Source: Polytrichum commune
Taxonomy: Eukaryota; Streptophyta; Polytrichopsida; Polytrichales; Polytrichaceae
DNA length: 64,000 nucleotides
Direction: 5' to 3'
NCBI GenBank assembly: GCA_950295325.1
Contig: OX485803.1
Location: forward strand, 33,159,554-33,223,553
The translations under genes and the position numbers were made by a program. Position 1 is the stretch's first letter. Each line of letters begins with the position of its first letter. Below, one piece after another: positions 39,498 through 48,015 of this stretch. The notes beneath the pieces are model-generated. The model made no database searches, was not told the DNA's origin, and saw only the letters and a list, made by a program, of their open reading frames with translations.

Positions 39498-40300
39498 CAT
39501 GAGTGACAATAATAATTGAGACAGTAAGTTATAAATATTCCACTAGACTGTGTTCTTTGGATGTGCTTATGAAAGAATGTTTTGGACGAACCCAACCTCA
39601 TACACTCATGCAATCATCATGCTCACTCAACCCATTATGCCTTCTATGGCCATGCATACATGCCATATACATGTATGTTCATGCTCATGCTCATAAGCCC
39701 CCACATTCCATCATTGTGTCCCCATGAGCATTTTAAGAAGAAGAAAATGAAACTTCTTTTCTTTTTAATCGGATTATCCTACTTTGTCTTATTGCACATG
39801 TCATGTCACCACCTTGGCTCCATGCCCGTCACTTCCCCTAAGTTCTCCCATTATTATTACCCACCTTGTGAATTCATAGTCCCCTACCTTTCCACATTTG
39901 TTTTCTCTTTCTCTAGTCACATGTTTGCTTTGGGGAGGAGTCTTCGGCACGTGGCCCTTTTTCTTTGGGATTTTTTTATGGTTTTTATTCATTGGCAAAA
40001 TCGGTGGGGTGACAACCTCACCATTACTACATCTTTCCATTATATATAAGGTTACTCGTCTTGACAATATTACTCTATAAAAAAGAGATCCCTCCCTACT
40101 ACTCAACCATAGACTTATAGCACTTGCTAACATTATATACAATTTTTTTACCATCACTTTAACATCCATACTTTCATCATATGGAGAAAAATACGAAATA
40201 CTACAAGATAGCCAAAAAAGGATTTAAAGCAAAAAAATGCACATCAAAACAAATACTAATACTAATAGCATCACTAGAAGATTAATTTCTAAATTACCAA
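39498..40300. other. Intergenic between Harbinger element and LINE
   Basis: Only short open frames are seen and no gene. The last 100 bases probably already belong to the decayed LINE. Confidence 0.4.
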
Positions 40301-40304
40301 CAAA

Positions 40305-40903
40305 GACACCTATTTACTTTACATTGATTTCAAAAACGCATTTGGATCAATAAATCATGCATGTCTATTAGCTATCATGAAAGACTTAGGATACCCAAAA
40401 GATGTAGTCAAACTGGTAGGTAACATATACTCACATTCCAACACCATATTTACTGGAGAATACTTTGGCCAAACAAAAGAATTACCAATACAAAGAGGTA
40501 TTATACAAGAGACACCCTTAGCCTATACCTCTTCATTATATTTTTGGAACCACTACTAAGATGGTTACAAAAAGGAAACTATGGATACACATGTGGAACA
40601 TCTAAATCCACAATTAGCTTTGTAGCATACGTAGATGATCTAGTAGCAATCACCAACAAACTCACATCACTACAATCACAACTAAACAAATTAAATAAAT
40701 ATTGTGAATGGGCATATATGGACCTTGTAATATCAAAATGTGCAACCACAAGGTGCCCAAATAAATCCAAAATGAACCAAATAACATTCAACATACAAAG
40801 CCAAACCATCAATATCACATATAGAAACCAACCCGTCCGAGTACTACATCAAAACGAACCATACATGTACCTAGGAATCCAACTCGTCTCATCCCTCAAA
40901 TGA
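40305..40903 (+). pseudogene. LINE reverse transcriptase fragment
   Basis: The stretch at 40305-40557 reads LLYIDFKNAFGSINH (motif A with the first catalytic Asp at about 40326) and LPIQRGIIQ (motif B region). After a frameshift, 40544-40903 reads PLLRWLQ, then FVAYVDDLVAI (motif C; Tyr-Val-Asp-Asp at 40628-40639), and YMYLGIQL. The frame stops at a TGA right after SLK; weaker related text continues to about 41500 with many stops. The palm motifs identify a non-LTR reverse transcriptase; the clade cannot be settled by eye. Confidence 0.82.
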
Positions 40904-41874
40904 AAAATATAAATACACATCACAAGGTCCACCAAAGTTACCAGCCTATGCAGTCAATTAGCAAATTGTCCAGCAACAATCAAACACAAAATCAGTATGG
41001 TAGATATCGTAATCAGAGCAAAAATTGCATACAACTTTTATGTAGTACCATACTCACAACTTGAAATCATAGAACTAAATTAAAAAATAATAGCAATTCA
41101 AAAGAAAATATGTGGATTCCCTAAATTGCTCATCAAACATGGTCACCCAACTACCCCATGAGTTGTTTGGAATAGAAGCATTCTCATTTAAAACACCTAC
41201 CTTAGATGGATCGGGGAACAACTCATAAATGCAATAAATGATAAAGACAAACTTCAAACAATATTCAGGGGTTTTACACATTATATACTAGCTAAACATG
41301 GGATGCAAAAAAATTATCTAGAATCAAACACCATAACTGTAACTGATCACCCACCACTAGAACAATATATCTTATCAAAGTAGCAGGTGAGGCCAATCTC
41401 AAAAGCAATATAGACAAATTCCCTTGGAAGCAACATCACTTGGAAAAAAATGGCATAACCTATCCACAACACCATCCCGCAAAAAAATTCTACTCAAAAC
41501 CTAAAATACATACATAAATTACTCCTAGAAAACATATACGACATAAAACAACTCACTTTACAAAATGGCACACACTTGATGTCTCATACTACGTATACAA
41601 AATATTACAAAAAACCAACACACCTGATAAAACAAGCACTAAAAACAACATAACAACCACCCAAAAACTATTCAACCATCCACAATGCAAAAAAAAAAAT
41701 TGTCAAGAGCCATCCAAAACCATTACCCATCACGTACATTGAAACAATAATACATTCTAATGGAACATAATATAGAACCACTAAACAGAGAAATCCTCAC
41801 ACATCCACTAACCCCATCACATATAATACATCTGACTACACCTGCACACATAAAAAAACAACCCAATAAGATAC

Positions 41875-43845
41875 ATGTAAGACCAATTTTTGGCTATAAC
41901 CTAGCCGAGTCATGCAATTCTTGACATCCGGCATTCATCCGGCAAATGGGCTTCGGATGACGTCTGGAGTCGCAGTTAGGGGCCATTATCATTAGGATTC
42001 AATTACGGTCCCAACTAACTCCTCCTCCTTCGTCACCATAAAGAGGAGGCGAGGCAGAAAGCAAGCATGCTATTTTCACATGTAGAATCAGGTATAGTCT
42101 CAGCGTAGAGCAATAGGTAGATAGTGGCATCAACTCTTAGTGATTAAGGTTGAGTGCAATAGGCATCCTCCGAGTGTGATACTTGAGAGAAACATAGCAA
42201 TAGGCAGATGAAGAACCGAGAGATTCGGTGTCTTGTGACAAAGAACATTGATATTTGGAATATAGTATTTTGTTGAGCAATAGTCTTGCAAGTGTGTGCA
42301 ATGCAATTCTGACGGTGGTAATTGTTTGAATGAGAGTAAGTTGTCTTGAATGGAACTATGTCTTGAGTAATGACTGGAAGAGTGACATAAGTTAGTCTTA
42401 GTCTGAAATCAATGTCGAGAAGGCAAGTTGAGCAGTGAAGCATATGGGCGATAGCCGTGAGCGTTGGAATAGACAAATAATTTGCCAAGAGGGCGAAGTA
42501 GATTGAGAGTAAAGTCTGAAAATCAACAATGGTCGTAGTCAAAATATAGCCAAAAACATGAGAGATATCTTGCTTATTCCGAGATAGACTTTGAAGGCTA
42601 AATTACCAAGAGAGAAAAAGAAGTTTGAGAGTGAAACCTAGAGAGCAATGTCTAAAGAGGCAATAAGCTGTGAAGTTATTGAGTGGATGTGTTAAGCCGG
42701 TGAGTGGTTGCATATTGTGAGAGTTCAAGTCCTTTGGTGAGAGGCCACAAAGAAAGCATCTGAATGAGAGTTAGAGAGAAGGAGAATCAAGACATGAGTG
42801 GAAGAGATATCAACATGCTATAATCATGCGAGTTAAGTCACTTACCCTGTGAGAGAGAGTGAAGACTAATTACCAGCAGAGAAGCAATAATCTGAAGCCG
42901 TTGGTGAAGAGGCATGACTAGTAGAAGGTCAAGTCGTAAATAACTTCCTAATGGGAGATGAAAGGGCAATAGCATGGGTGCAGACTAGAGGCCATAAGCG
43001 GAGAAGCCAAGGCTTGGGCTATGTGCAGAGAAAACGAATAGCCAGAGTGTGAGCAGTAAAGACTGAGAAGCATGGGATGGGCAAAGTCATAATTGAAAGA
43101 GTGTGATAGGCCATAGCCGTGTCCAGGGGCTTGAGCCGCTAGAGACATTACCCTATGGTAATTACCTGAGACAGGGTATGGCATGGGCAGGTGTGCCGCA
43201 TATCACCAGCCAATATAAAAGAGACTAGGCATGCCGAGTAAGGGCTAACGTGGGCATTGACTACATAGTCGGAAGAAGAAGACTTTACCGTGTGAGATAA
43301 GATTGACTTTCATGCAAATTCCTTGGATGGTAAAAATTAATCAATCAAGGGATATAGCTTGATCAATATATACATACTTGATGTATTAACAAGATGGATG
43401 TTCTTTGAGATGAATTTCCAGGTCTACCAGAAGACAAAGGAGGTTACAGTTTCCGAAGACTTGCCCGATGGTTGTAAGTAAACTAAATGTAATTAATTTG
43501 AGATTATTGCCAGTATAACTCATCACAAATAAAGACAAAGATGGATACTAAAAAGACGTTACCCCATATGTGTTGTCCTGACTATGAGTAATGACAACTT
43601 GCCAAGCTATTGTGCTTTACAACTGAAATAGGTCAAGACATAGAGCGATAGAGGATTCCTTAAAAATAGGACGGAAACACTCACAACATTTAAAACACAA
43701 ATGAATCATAAGAGTGGAGAAAAAATATAATGAAGAAGGAATGAGAAAGGAAGAGTCTTAGATTGTTATTATAATCCTTAAACCAATGTGACATTAACCC
43801 TTACAGAGACTATCTTAATCTTCCTGGAGACTTGGTTCCCTGGGT
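41875..43845 (+). repeat. Dispersed repeat family A, copy 2, inserted in the LINE
   Basis: The first 475 bases match 2130-2640. The insert begins TGTAAGACC after GATACA, and LINE-like coding text seems to resume at about 43850, giving an insert of about 1.9 kb. The interior is purine-rich (GAGAG, AAGAGG) with no coding capacity. A TATAAAA lies at about 43215. The 3' boundary and any target duplication are not resolved. A large retrotransposon derivative is the best guess. Confidence 0.55.
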
Positions 43846-45129
43846 CATAGCAAAAGCCAAACTACAATACCCTATACACTCAATAAAGAACATTACATAA
43901 AACCAACCAAATATAAATACAAAATTATAAACAAAAACAACACACATACCTATGCCAATGGATACTACCCAATGATACAATCTACAACAAAAAAAACTCT
44001 CACAAAGAGAATTATTTCCCTATAATCTCCCAAGCGGCATACAACACAACACAAATACAATAATCACATACTTAACCAAAAAACAACATACAATATCCAA
44101 AAATATCATATAAGAAAATGATTCTTTTACCCAAAACAAAGATCCAAGACACGTATCTCCACCCTTAAACATCCCCCTCATAAAAATTTCAACACATGAA
44201 TGCAACCTTGAAAAATATATCAATGCTAATACAAAAAAAAAACCAAGTACAAGATGAAATTGCCCACATATATGACGAAACATGCAAACATCTTATAATC
44301 ATTCCTTATAGCAGACTTGTATGGTTGTGAAACCAATACAATAGAATGTTACACCAACCACCGACTTAATATCCCCCACCCAATTGTTTGAAATAGCAAT
44401 AACATAGCTATATCAAAGATATAATCTTATAATCCCATAAAATGACCCACTCAAAAACTCACACCAAGCCCTACCCAAAGCACTACCTAGACTACATCAC
44501 AAAATCCTTTAATATTACACACTCCTACTTCTCTTTACCAATCACATGCTCCACTCGTCTAACAAAATTCTTCTCGCCATTTCCTGCATACAAAAAAATT
44601 GGATTTGTTGGTAACACATTCTCACATAGATGGCAAGGAATATGTTATGATTACCCAATGAAATTAGAGCCCAAGCAACCATCCATTGGGCCATACTAAC
44701 AACTAAATACGATCCAAATACCACCATAATTTTTACCATCCCAGATATAAACTGATATCAAAACTTCACCCCATATTTAGTCCCCTTCCCATACACACAT
44801 GTAATTACTCACATACCAGCAGATACCACTAAGTACAAGGAACCAACTAAACCATCGGAACTCAGCGAGCCATGTATAAAACCACTTGCCATGAAAATTC
44901 TCTACATACATCACTAGAATAATAACATAACAAATAGACACAACTAAAAAAAATGTAATAACCTTAACATAACCCACATAATCACACAAATTGCCCTCTT
45001 ACCCCGCAAAAATTAGAAGTTAACAAAAATAAAACATGGAATGCTCGCACTTACTCAATCCCAAATACACACCCCAATAACACAATCCCACCAATCCCAA
45101 ACTACGAGAATGAAACACCCCTTAAATTC

Positions 45130-45480
45130 TCCCCCCAATATTGCTTTTATACGGATGAATCCTTCAACCCTCCAAAAAGAAAAATGAGATATCTAGCTAC
45201 ATGAAGAAGCTAAATACAATGTATATAAGCACGAAAAAAATATTAAACTTGCAATACGATTACCACACCTACAAAACATACTTAGAGTAGAATTAATGGA
45301 CATACATCACACCCTTACAATAATAAATAAAGACTTCCCAAATGACCCGTACATATCTTCACAAATTGCCTAAATGATTTATATGTGATCAAAAACCAAA
45401 TAAAACACCCTACACTACACAACAACCACCCAGATAAAACCATTATGCAAGAAATAGTTAATTTCTATATACATAGAACT
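45130..45480 (+). pseudogene. RNase H-like domain remnant of the LINE
   Basis: Short in-frame pieces read FYTDESFNPPKR (about 45142), VELMDIHHTL (about 45289) and TNCLNDLYVIKNQIK (about 45358). This order of Asp, Glu and a TDxxN-like block is the usual RNase H active-site order, with Asn where the third acid is expected. Stops and shifts lie between the pieces. The assignment rests on these three motifs only. Confidence 0.5.
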
Positions 45481-45814
45481 CAACCCACAATACTATACAA
45501 AGTAAGAGTACATTAAAAGAACACTACAATGCCTCACAACCACATGAATTTGCCCACTCAACATTGTACTACTACCAACGAGACTATTGGTCGTCAATGG
45601 GAACAACCCCTAACAAAGGACTTATTAGATTCCTTGAAAAACATCTCACGAAATATGATAAGAATATAAAGCTAAAATTGATCCCCGTATTATATCCCAA
45701 CATAGATAAATGAATAGCCAATGAGAAAATAGATAATGAGCTATCAAATAAATTTGGACAAACAAAACATAATTGACTCTCAAAAAACATGTCTACTAAA
45801 CTAAGACATAATAC

Positions 45815-46544
45815 ATGGGGGATGCCAAGAAACAATTATTCTTTAGCAAGGAAGTCTTCCCATCAATTACATGCCCCAAATGTAACTCTCTAGACCCTGA
45901 TACACGGCTACATGTACTTCTAATGTGCAAACAATACCACATACATGCCCTCCAAGCCAAAAGACATAATAAAAGAATATGGGAATTAAGAAAACTTATA
46001 GTGGCATCAAAAAAAGTCAAGGTGCTATGTTCTCATGAATGCATGCACATTCAATAATGACCCCCAAGAAAACAATGTCCCCCCATGGCTACTATATTGC
46101 ACGTGTGGCCAACAAAGATGTCACTGCAATGCCAAATTCAAACCAGACCTTCTATGTGTGCAAGGACTACCATATGAATCTTCACCACCAACAAAACCTA
46201 ATGATAACCTAACAATACAATTCATTAAATTCACATGTTGTAATGATAGAATACCATATGAAACTATAATAAATAAAAAAATAAAAAAACCACTAATAGA
46301 CAATATTATCAATAGATGATGGAAGATAGATCCACTAATAGTTATCATGGCCAATGCTAGGGCAACCACACACACACCTTCTATGAAGGGTATTGAAACA
46401 ACATCTAAAATCCCTAAGCTAAGCCTCAAATACACATTTGAGGAAATCAACGTCATTGCCATACAATATGCTATGTCCATAATTCTACACAAAAGGAGGA
46501 TAGAAAACAACAAACCACTACCAATAAACACACAACCATCATAA
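45815..46544 (+). pseudogene. LINE C terminus: CCHC motif plus restriction-like-endonuclease-like region
   Basis: The first fragment (45815-46057) contains CPKC, then nine residues, His, four residues and Cys, the CCHC spacing that precedes the endonuclease of RLE-type LINEs. A second frame (46035-46319) has KFKPDLLCV and, about 18 residues on, LTIQFIKFTCCNDR, consistent with a PD-(D/E)xK core whose second acid may be lost. After a TGA at 46317 the same frame resumes with WKIDPLIVIMANARATTH and ends at 46544. L1-like plant LINEs lack such a tail. Confidence 0.55.
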
Positions 46545-46619
46545 CAACCCTAAGTACCCACCAACCAATAAATAATTAGGATTACAAAAGAATAAATGCC
46601 AACACTGGCTAAGGAATTG

Positions 46620-46790
46620 TCATAACTTATGGTAGGGGTTGGTGGCCATACTTTCCTGCCAAGTCACTTACGTCACAATACAATACTCGTACGGAGGCCA
46701 TCATGAATCGAACCCGAACGGCGAAACATGTGATACTAACCCTCTCATACGATGAACCACTTCGAAGTCCCATGACTCAGTGGCCACCTC
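46620..46790 (-). repeat. Possible tRNA-derived SINE
   Basis: The minus strand holds AGTGGTTCATCG (box A-like) and, about 45 bases on, CGGGTTCGATTC (a good box B), with no cloverleaf. This is the layout of a tRNA-derived SINE head, and the following body would run toward 46550. It abuts the 3' end of the LINE in opposite orientation. No tail or target duplication was identified. Confidence 0.35.
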
Positions 46791-46799
46791 ACAAAGAAA

Positions 46800-48015
46800 A
46801 GTGATCATATATCCCTACAACATCATAACCACACTAACCCCACCAATACAAAGATCATCCAATCACTAAGTTCCCAAAGACACTTTGGTTACCTTGGTTA
46901 CTATAGTGCCCACCCCGAGAGGGGTTCGTAGTCCTGCACCAATGATATTATGTCTAATGAACATAACACCAAGGGTGGGTCGAACGGGCATTTCAATCGC
47001 AATGATCCCACTAAGGTCAACGTTTCTTCTCTCCCCTCCTCTCTCTCTCTCTGTATATAAGGTCAAGGCATGTGTAATTGATAAAATAAGACATTTTGCA
47101 TATGTTTGGGAGGAGTATTAGTGGTGAAATATTTTTCTTGCTTAGAGAAACATATTCCAGGGAGAATGCAATTTTATAAATAAATAATTCATGAATATGG
47201 AAATTGTTACAAATTTCAAAGCAATAAAGTCTAAGGTAACACACAATCGATCTATAGGTTAACCCATAACTGCTCATCTAAATGCTAATTTTGGGCATAA
47301 CAATTGTCAAAACTCTTATGAGGGTAATCAATCACAAGCCGCCACCACATAAGGCTTAACTCCCTTCACCTAATAGAAATAGATCTCATCCATGTTAGCG
47401 GTACATGACCCTAGTGAGTAGTTAAATGGACATGGTTGACTACAGATGCCTCGACCTTCGATAATGTACTGAAATATTACATATTGTAGCATATTTAATC
47501 ACTCTACCTGAATTATACATGCAACTTGCCCCAACTCTATCTATAGATTAGAGACAAAATGAATAGTGGAGATAGCCTCTTGCCATATGCATCAAGCTTA
47601 TATGTGCATTTGGTGGAGCCTGTCATGGATTCATTGAAGACATTTGTGCAGTGAGACAATGGGTGTTGTTGTATGATGTATTATGCATGGTGGTTTCCTG
47701 TCATAGTCCACTTGCATTTCTTCCTTTGTTCCTAATTCAATTGTATTCTTTTCCTTTGTCTTGACACTCTTATCGAAATTTGGCTTCACCAGTGGTCAAA
47801 TCCTCCTCCTCCGACACCAAATACTTGCATTCAAGAGGTTGCAAGCTCATTGGGTAAGCTTTTAGTGCTTACTCGCAAATTGTATTTAGGTGATTCTTGA
47901 TGGTAATTTGGGGCTCATTCCCTAACATATGTCCATTTTATTTTTTTATTTTTTTTAATGTGTAAGGCACCCTTTCATAAGTCCATCAACTTTCCCACCA
48001 CAACAATATGTCGGC
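46800..48015. other. Intergenic, no gene seen
   Basis: AT-rich, with a short TCTC run at 47035-47055 (CTCCTCTCTCTCTCT) and no recognisable coding sequence. Confidence 0.4.

Follow-up and report, generated by a model that had tools for sequence, protein, structure and literature searches.

The window analysed here is a stretch of 64,000 nucleotides from the moss Polytrichum commune (assembly GCA_950295325.1, contig OX485803.1, positions 33,159,554 to 33,223,553 of the forward strand). On its plus strand, at about 40061–47026, lies a copy of a long interspersed nuclear element (LINE) whose relatives elsewhere in this genome seem to encode a pair of DNA-cutting enzymes that differ in origin: an apurinic-type endonuclease (APE) upstream of the reverse transcriptase (RT) and a restriction-like endonuclease (RLE) downstream of it. 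The family is very probably a recently active, abundant dual-endonuclease retrotransposon of the non-long terminal repeat class, Dualen/RandI-like, in a land plant. The likeness is supported by predicted architecture, because both nucleases match the published description of Dualen/RandI, in which APE and RLE occur together (in the part of PMC3636483 available to us). RNase H (portions of PMC4640811) and an occurrence in Chlamydomonas and its relatives (portions of PMC8226300) are also on record for these elements. A first-pass annotation of the window had read the element as a land-plant member of an RLE-type and possibly Dualen-like lineage; the relatives, with APE, RT, RNase H, CCHC and RLE and an RT outside L1, bear this out. 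Their architecture also has extra modules beyond those that it had listed.

The genome was searched in 408 Mb on 64 contigs. All six LEAFY exon candidates in it match C_LFY_FLO, as expected of a land plant, and one exon scores highest, among five solved LEAFY sequences, with 4bhk of the moss Physcomitrella (202 bits, versus 182 for 2vy1 of Arabidopsis), in keeping with a bryophyte. In copies with a long second open reading frame (ORF2), this frame measures 2,372–2,924 residues; four such copies are open over 2,625, 2,625, 2,924 (with added upstream DNA) and 2,663 residues. The order of modules is leader, 2A-type motif, APE, RT, chromodomain-like module, PCIF1-like domain, RNase H, CCHC knuckle and RLE. 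In the 2,625-residue ORF2 of copy L028, the 2A-type motif lies at residue 277, APE at 505–765, the chromodomain-like module at about 1711–1758 and the CCHC knuckle at 2402, with the RLE running to the end. Full-length L028 ORF2 matched RVT_1 (E 2.6e-29), RNase_H (4.6e-13) and PCIF1_WW (3e-10), all above the Pfam cut-offs, as did the RT, RNase H and PCIF1_WW regions of copy L030. RNase_H was also above cut-off in L074, which together with L075 represents a second subfamily of unchanged domain order; identity to L028 is 43% for L074 and 40% for L075. When the APE region was cut out and scanned as a piece, Exo_endo_phos_2 was matched in all five rows examined (best E 5.8e-10), above cut-off in L074, and the APE catalytic motifs are kept in five of five. 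Against solved structures, the RT profile scored best with three R2 chains (115–107 bits), followed by human L1 and then silkworm R2.

A predicted RLE was located downstream of the RT, after the CCHC knuckle. Passages of PMC5678591 name as hallmarks of RLEs the CCHC knuckle, an RH pair, PD, a D/E, a displaced catalytic K within KX2KY, and GXW. All 11 family rows contain an ordered pattern built from these features and from R2, GXW omitted, and shuffling a single row 20,000 times never produced it; because the pattern was written after the rows had been seen, this count is a description and no blind test. In a profile comparison with two R2 RLE pieces (hhalign), the 11 rows scored 21.8 (E 0.0081), a score that none of 200 column shuffles reached. 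Motif order and profile comparison together thus indicate a candidate C-terminal PD-(D/E)xK signature, as the first-pass annotation had proposed.

Ratios of nonsynonymous to synonymous substitution (dN/dS, method NG86) between L028 and L030, the one unsaturated pair and the one on which the result rests, are 0.078 for APE, 0.054 for RT, 0.040 for the chromodomain-like module, 0.118 for the PCIF1-like domain, 0.058 for RNase H and 0.079 for RLE; two linker stretches give 0.108 and 0.149. Each named domain is under purifying selection in this pair, and neither nuclease looks relaxed.

The family is also numerous and has moved recently. At least 150 genomic matches were obtained with the RT piece of the window (150 of 1249 candidates scored) and at least 150 with its RLE piece (150 of 3196 scored), both rough lower bounds. 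L028 and L029 are 99.0% identical over 10.7 kb, L030 and L031 are 99.7% identical over 12.9 kb, and the 3' end of L030 recurs at 99–100% identity in at least four further places, L031 among them (40 of 1604 candidates scored); these near-identities indicate recent movement.

Between RT and RNase H, the ORF2s hold two modules that were recognised by profile resemblance. PCIF1_WW was found in six of six rows (best E 1.2e-13), and among solved structures the PCIF1-like profile matched PCIF1 alone, in two sequences (with six rows, E 0.017 and 0.036; with eight rows, 0.0044 and 0.098). In the genome, 150 of 697 candidates for this domain were scored and all 150 exceeded the cut-off. The Chromo profile was matched in four of seven rows (best E 0.0026). 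Among 15 structure matches with E up to 10, the best eight for the chromodomain-like module are chromodomain proteins (best E 0.064), six of them named CDYL or CDYL2 and the other two presumably CBX4. Ahead of APE, a putative 2A (StopGo) motif, D(V/I)ExNPGP, is canonical in six of ten copies. One locus of the second subfamily (L075:956-7348) carries the 2A-type motif twice, as GDIELNPGP and as GDIEINPGP, so that its leader looks duplicated.

Several results weigh against this reading. For the APE, full-length scans of L028 and L030 returned no APE family at E 1, the L028 piece scored 22.5 against a cut-off of 27.4, and the best solved match of the profile, exonuclease III, is weak (E 0.027). 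For the RT, human L1 (75.2 bits) outscores silkworm R2 (70.8), though it stands under the three best R2 chains. For the RLE, the hhalign probability is just 4.9%, and with the nine close rows alone 9 of 200 shuffles equalled the R2 comparison; GXW is not evident in the family; the knuckle spacing is 9 compared with the 7–8 given in portions of PMC5678591; the RLE profile returned one irrelevant match among solved structures and the region nothing relevant in Pfam; and a single-sequence structure model of the window's RLE piece was unusable (mean pLDDT 33.6). PCIF1_WW falls below its cut-off of 31.1 in L074 (27.4, E 3e-6) and L075 (26.1, E 7.2e-6). No row reaches the Chromo cut-off (best 18.1 bits versus 25.1), and dN/dS of the chromodomain-like module rises to 0.45 against L039 and 0.68 against L074, with synonymous sites near saturation. 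The 2A motif is altered at its E in four of ten copies. No target-site duplications were defined; they are not resolvable because the 5' untranslated region (UTR) runs past the end first assumed for the element. The predicted RLE fold and the roles inferred for the PCIF1-like and chromodomain-like modules are among the weakest links.

With the nuclease fold and activity of the tail read from sequence and GXW not seen, the family could be an APE-using LINE in which the APE, its catalytic motifs intact, acts alone and the RLE-like tail is just a DNA- or RNA-binding relic. We regard this as rather unlikely, since PD, E and K-X2-K-Y are retained in 11 of 11 rows from two subfamilies and the RLE has a dN/dS similar to that of the APE.

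A second alternative concerns the PCIF1-like domain. The PCIF1 fold is that of the cap-adjacent m6A methyltransferase, and NPPF is its catalytic motif. NPPF reads as such in the matched PCIF1 chain; at the same position the family has A-[HF]-P-[HPTK] in eight of eight rows (AHPH, AHPP, AFPT or AHPK), the asparagine being kept in none. This replacement predicts a loss of adenine methylation, and the domain probably no longer methylates adenine. Its retention in two subfamilies and its dN/dS of 0.118 between L028 and L030 would also suit a domain that still methylates adenine by way of an unusual motif and thereby marks RNA or DNA of the element itself, a possibility made improbable by the same eight substituted rows. 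A host PCIF1 gene was also looked for: among the 150 of 697 candidates scored, the best three matches (L032–L034) are LINE copies, as their RNase H pieces reveal.

That the family is an ordinary plant L1-type LINE with a chance likeness to RLE is very improbable: L1-type RTs do occur in the same genome (six rows examined), and APE, RT and RNase H are found together in plant L1 elements as well (in the portions of PMC9033089 and PMC4640811 available to us), but the family lies outside a 100/98 branch that unites seven L1 rows, the best-scoring solved RTs are R2 chains, and the C terminus has additional RLE motifs. The tree behind this rejection comprised 16 RT rows from three sources, the family, R2 and L1; family (six rows, 100/100), R2 (three rows, 94/94) and L1 (seven rows, 100/98) formed one group each, and with three groups the tree tells no more than that the family belongs to neither L1 nor R2. 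The first-pass annotation had set against its own proposal the combination of an APE with L1 or RTE placement; the APE is present in the relatives, but the L1 placement is not.

An R2 identity was likewise rejected. R2 sits in ribosomal DNA and is not known to contain an APE, a chromodomain or a PCIF1 domain. The moss family resembles R2 of silkworm and zebra finch in that R2 chains are the best-scoring solved RTs and in its C terminus with CCHC and RLE; unlike R2, it has an APE, and the flanks at the examined 3' ends look mutually unrelated by eye.

We propose the following course of retrotransposition for the Dualen/RandI-like family. The 2A motif would free the enzyme polyprotein from the leader, and the chromodomain-like module may help pick the chromatin. 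The RT would recognise the 3' fold described below and, at a site nicked by one of the nucleases, begin target-primed reverse transcription. RNase H would strip the RNA, and the second nuclease would cut the other strand, a division of labour between the nucleases that we infer. The PCIF1-like domain, its catalytic motif lost, would probably bind the capped 5' end or other RNA instead of methylating. More tentatively, and with more doubt than confidence, we suggest that neither ancestral nuclease was lost in this lineage, each serving one strand in target-primed integration, and that the lineage acquired a chromodomain, to target chromatin, and a pseudo-methyltransferase of PCIF1 origin, to read the element's RNA at its capped 5' end. 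If true, this would make it a mobile element that carries the fold of a cap enzyme. The position of Dualen has been taken as showing that APE-type LINEs arose through replacement of RLE by APE (portions of PMC4640811). A recently active land-plant family with similar purifying selection on both nuclease regions makes it testable why an element would keep two nucleases.

The comparison with Dualen/RandI was made by description only. The APE upstream of the RT, the RLE after CCHC and the RNase H are points of likeness; unlike the algal elements, the family resides in a land plant, and relative to the description it adds the chromodomain-like and PCIF1-like domains and the 2A motif, the algal sequences themselves not having been compared. 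A cysteine protease is present in the Chlamydomonas Dualen element and is not known to be defining; Pfam scans of four moss ORF2s, at E up to 1, found no protease family. Plant L1 and RTE elements share APE, RT and often RNase H (portions of PMC9033089), and they are the only plant LINE superfamilies named in the parts of this 2022 review available to us. Unlike plant L1, the moss family has an RT outside L1, an RLE, and a tail of short repeats in place of (A)n. The PCIF1-like domain resembles PCIF1/CAPAM in that PCIF1_WW is above the Pfam cut-off in the L028 subfamily and its only solved matches are PCIF1; it differs in the replaced NPPF and in lying inside a retrotransposon polyprotein. LINEs of trypanosomes and sea urchins are known to carry 2A motifs (portions of PMC4981915), and a 2026 study, in the text available to us, reports almost none in plant viruses (PMC12846837). 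Searches of viral contigs with the RT, PCIF1-like and RLE alignments returned no relatives. In titles and the openings of abstracts, with little subscription literature covered, no report was found of Dualen-like elements in land plants or of retrotransposons with a PCIF1 domain. As far as these searches reach, the PCIF1-like domain, the chromodomain-like module, the 2A motif and the land-plant presence are new, and the pairing of the two modules would be a novelty among non-LTR elements.

The window copy itself is an old, dead, 5'-truncated relic with a broken frame and a 3' UTR, delimited by collinear tblastn and blastn matches to L028 and by the 3' UTR block. In tblastn, it is collinear with residues 1114–2624 of L028 ORF2 in four pieces (best E 5.8e-110), and over the RT it has about 70% DNA identity to L028. 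The RT with thumb and linker (ORF2 residues 1114–1679; 40% identity) occupies 40061–41728, with DFKNAFGS at 40326, YVDD at 40628 and an RVT_1 match above the Pfam cut-off at 40427–40900 (E 8.8e-9). After the inserted DNA described below come a chromodomain-like remnant at about 43865–44020, placed by a collinear match from ORF2 residue 1709 to a module defined in other copies, a PCIF1-like remnant at 44069–44929 (34% identity; one fragment matched PCIF1_WW at E 0.009, below cut-off) and an RNase H remnant at 45100–45513 (36% identity). The CCHC knuckle C-X2-C-X9-H-X4-C lies at 45872–45928 and is followed by RHNK at 45962–45973, in the order given for RLE LINEs in portions of PMC5678591. The putative RLE remnant at 46098–46541 contains KPD at 46140, IKFT at 46224, KKIKK at 46275 and ARATTH at 46356; the family rows carry the profile match to R2 RLE, and the window's IKFT and KKIKK correspond to EFT and K-X2-K-Y in the family alignment. 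The aligned pieces contain 10 stops in RT, 13 in the PCIF1-like domain, 7 in RNase H and 3 in RLE. All features from DFKNAFGS to IKFT are on the plus strand, in the order in which the first-pass annotation had read its RT motifs, CCHC knuckle, KPD and IKFT. It had placed the element at 40300–46550; the element stands, and its limits move to about 40061 at the start and, with the 3' UTR, to about 47026. Its word fossil fits this frame-broken copy and not the family, in which copies are 99.0% and 99.7% identical. With the L028 ORF2 as tblastn query, the window yielded no match to the APE; the copy starts inside the RT, so the segment that would hold the upstream endonuclease is absent.

About 2.1 kb within the copy (41729–43864) match no part of the element and separate collinear pieces, and this foreign DNA probably represents a later insertion into the LINE. 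An inverted-repeat scan of it gave just short or imperfect arms, none at both ends.

Of 12 newly fetched 3' regions, 11 share the same element terminus: GGACCGGAGTT, then one base and two to six CTAT units, with unrelated-looking flanks beyond; the twelfth region did not include the element end. The 3' ends of L028–L031 have the same layout with four or five CTAT units. Tails vary by subfamily, the ends of L042, L043, L074 and L075 showing CTAT, CTT or T-rich units with C. The last ~130 bases, at 46896–47026 of the window's plus strand, form a structured RNA block: a stem around a short and a long hairpin, followed by a final hairpin. When the window was aligned with six other copies, 14 of 38 pairs were changed on both sides, and the covariation score of 0.327 exceeded the 0.199 of shuffles (0 of 500 as high; kinship among the seven rows can inflate this control) and slid controls (at most 0.155). 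The same layout was recovered on folding single sequences of L074 (z -5.9) and L075 (z -6.6), which differ in sequence, and of L042 (z -7.0); it is less marked in L030 (z -2.8, 3 of 200 shuffles equally stable). No Rfam family reached its gathering threshold at the eight loci scanned. At the other end, a purine-rich block, AGAAAAGA, stands just upstream of the 5' end first assumed in nine of ten copies and is preceded by variable DNA, which indicates a longer, seemingly modular 5' UTR.

ORF1 lies upstream of ORF2 and measures 747 residues from stop to stop in the L028 copy and at least 1,259 in the L030 copy. No Pfam family scored above cut-off in ORF1; the core of the L028-copy protein is 27% identical to the ORF1 of the L030 copy and 28% to that of L074. 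The L028-copy ORF1 (L035/L028) has about 190 extra N-terminal residues, which by eye comprise a signal-peptide-like segment and then a cysteine-containing stretch; this extension was not seen in the L030 version and matched no Pfam family. The ORF2 coding strand of L028, L030 and their neighbours is strikingly low in G (5–16% per kb) and is A- and C-rich.

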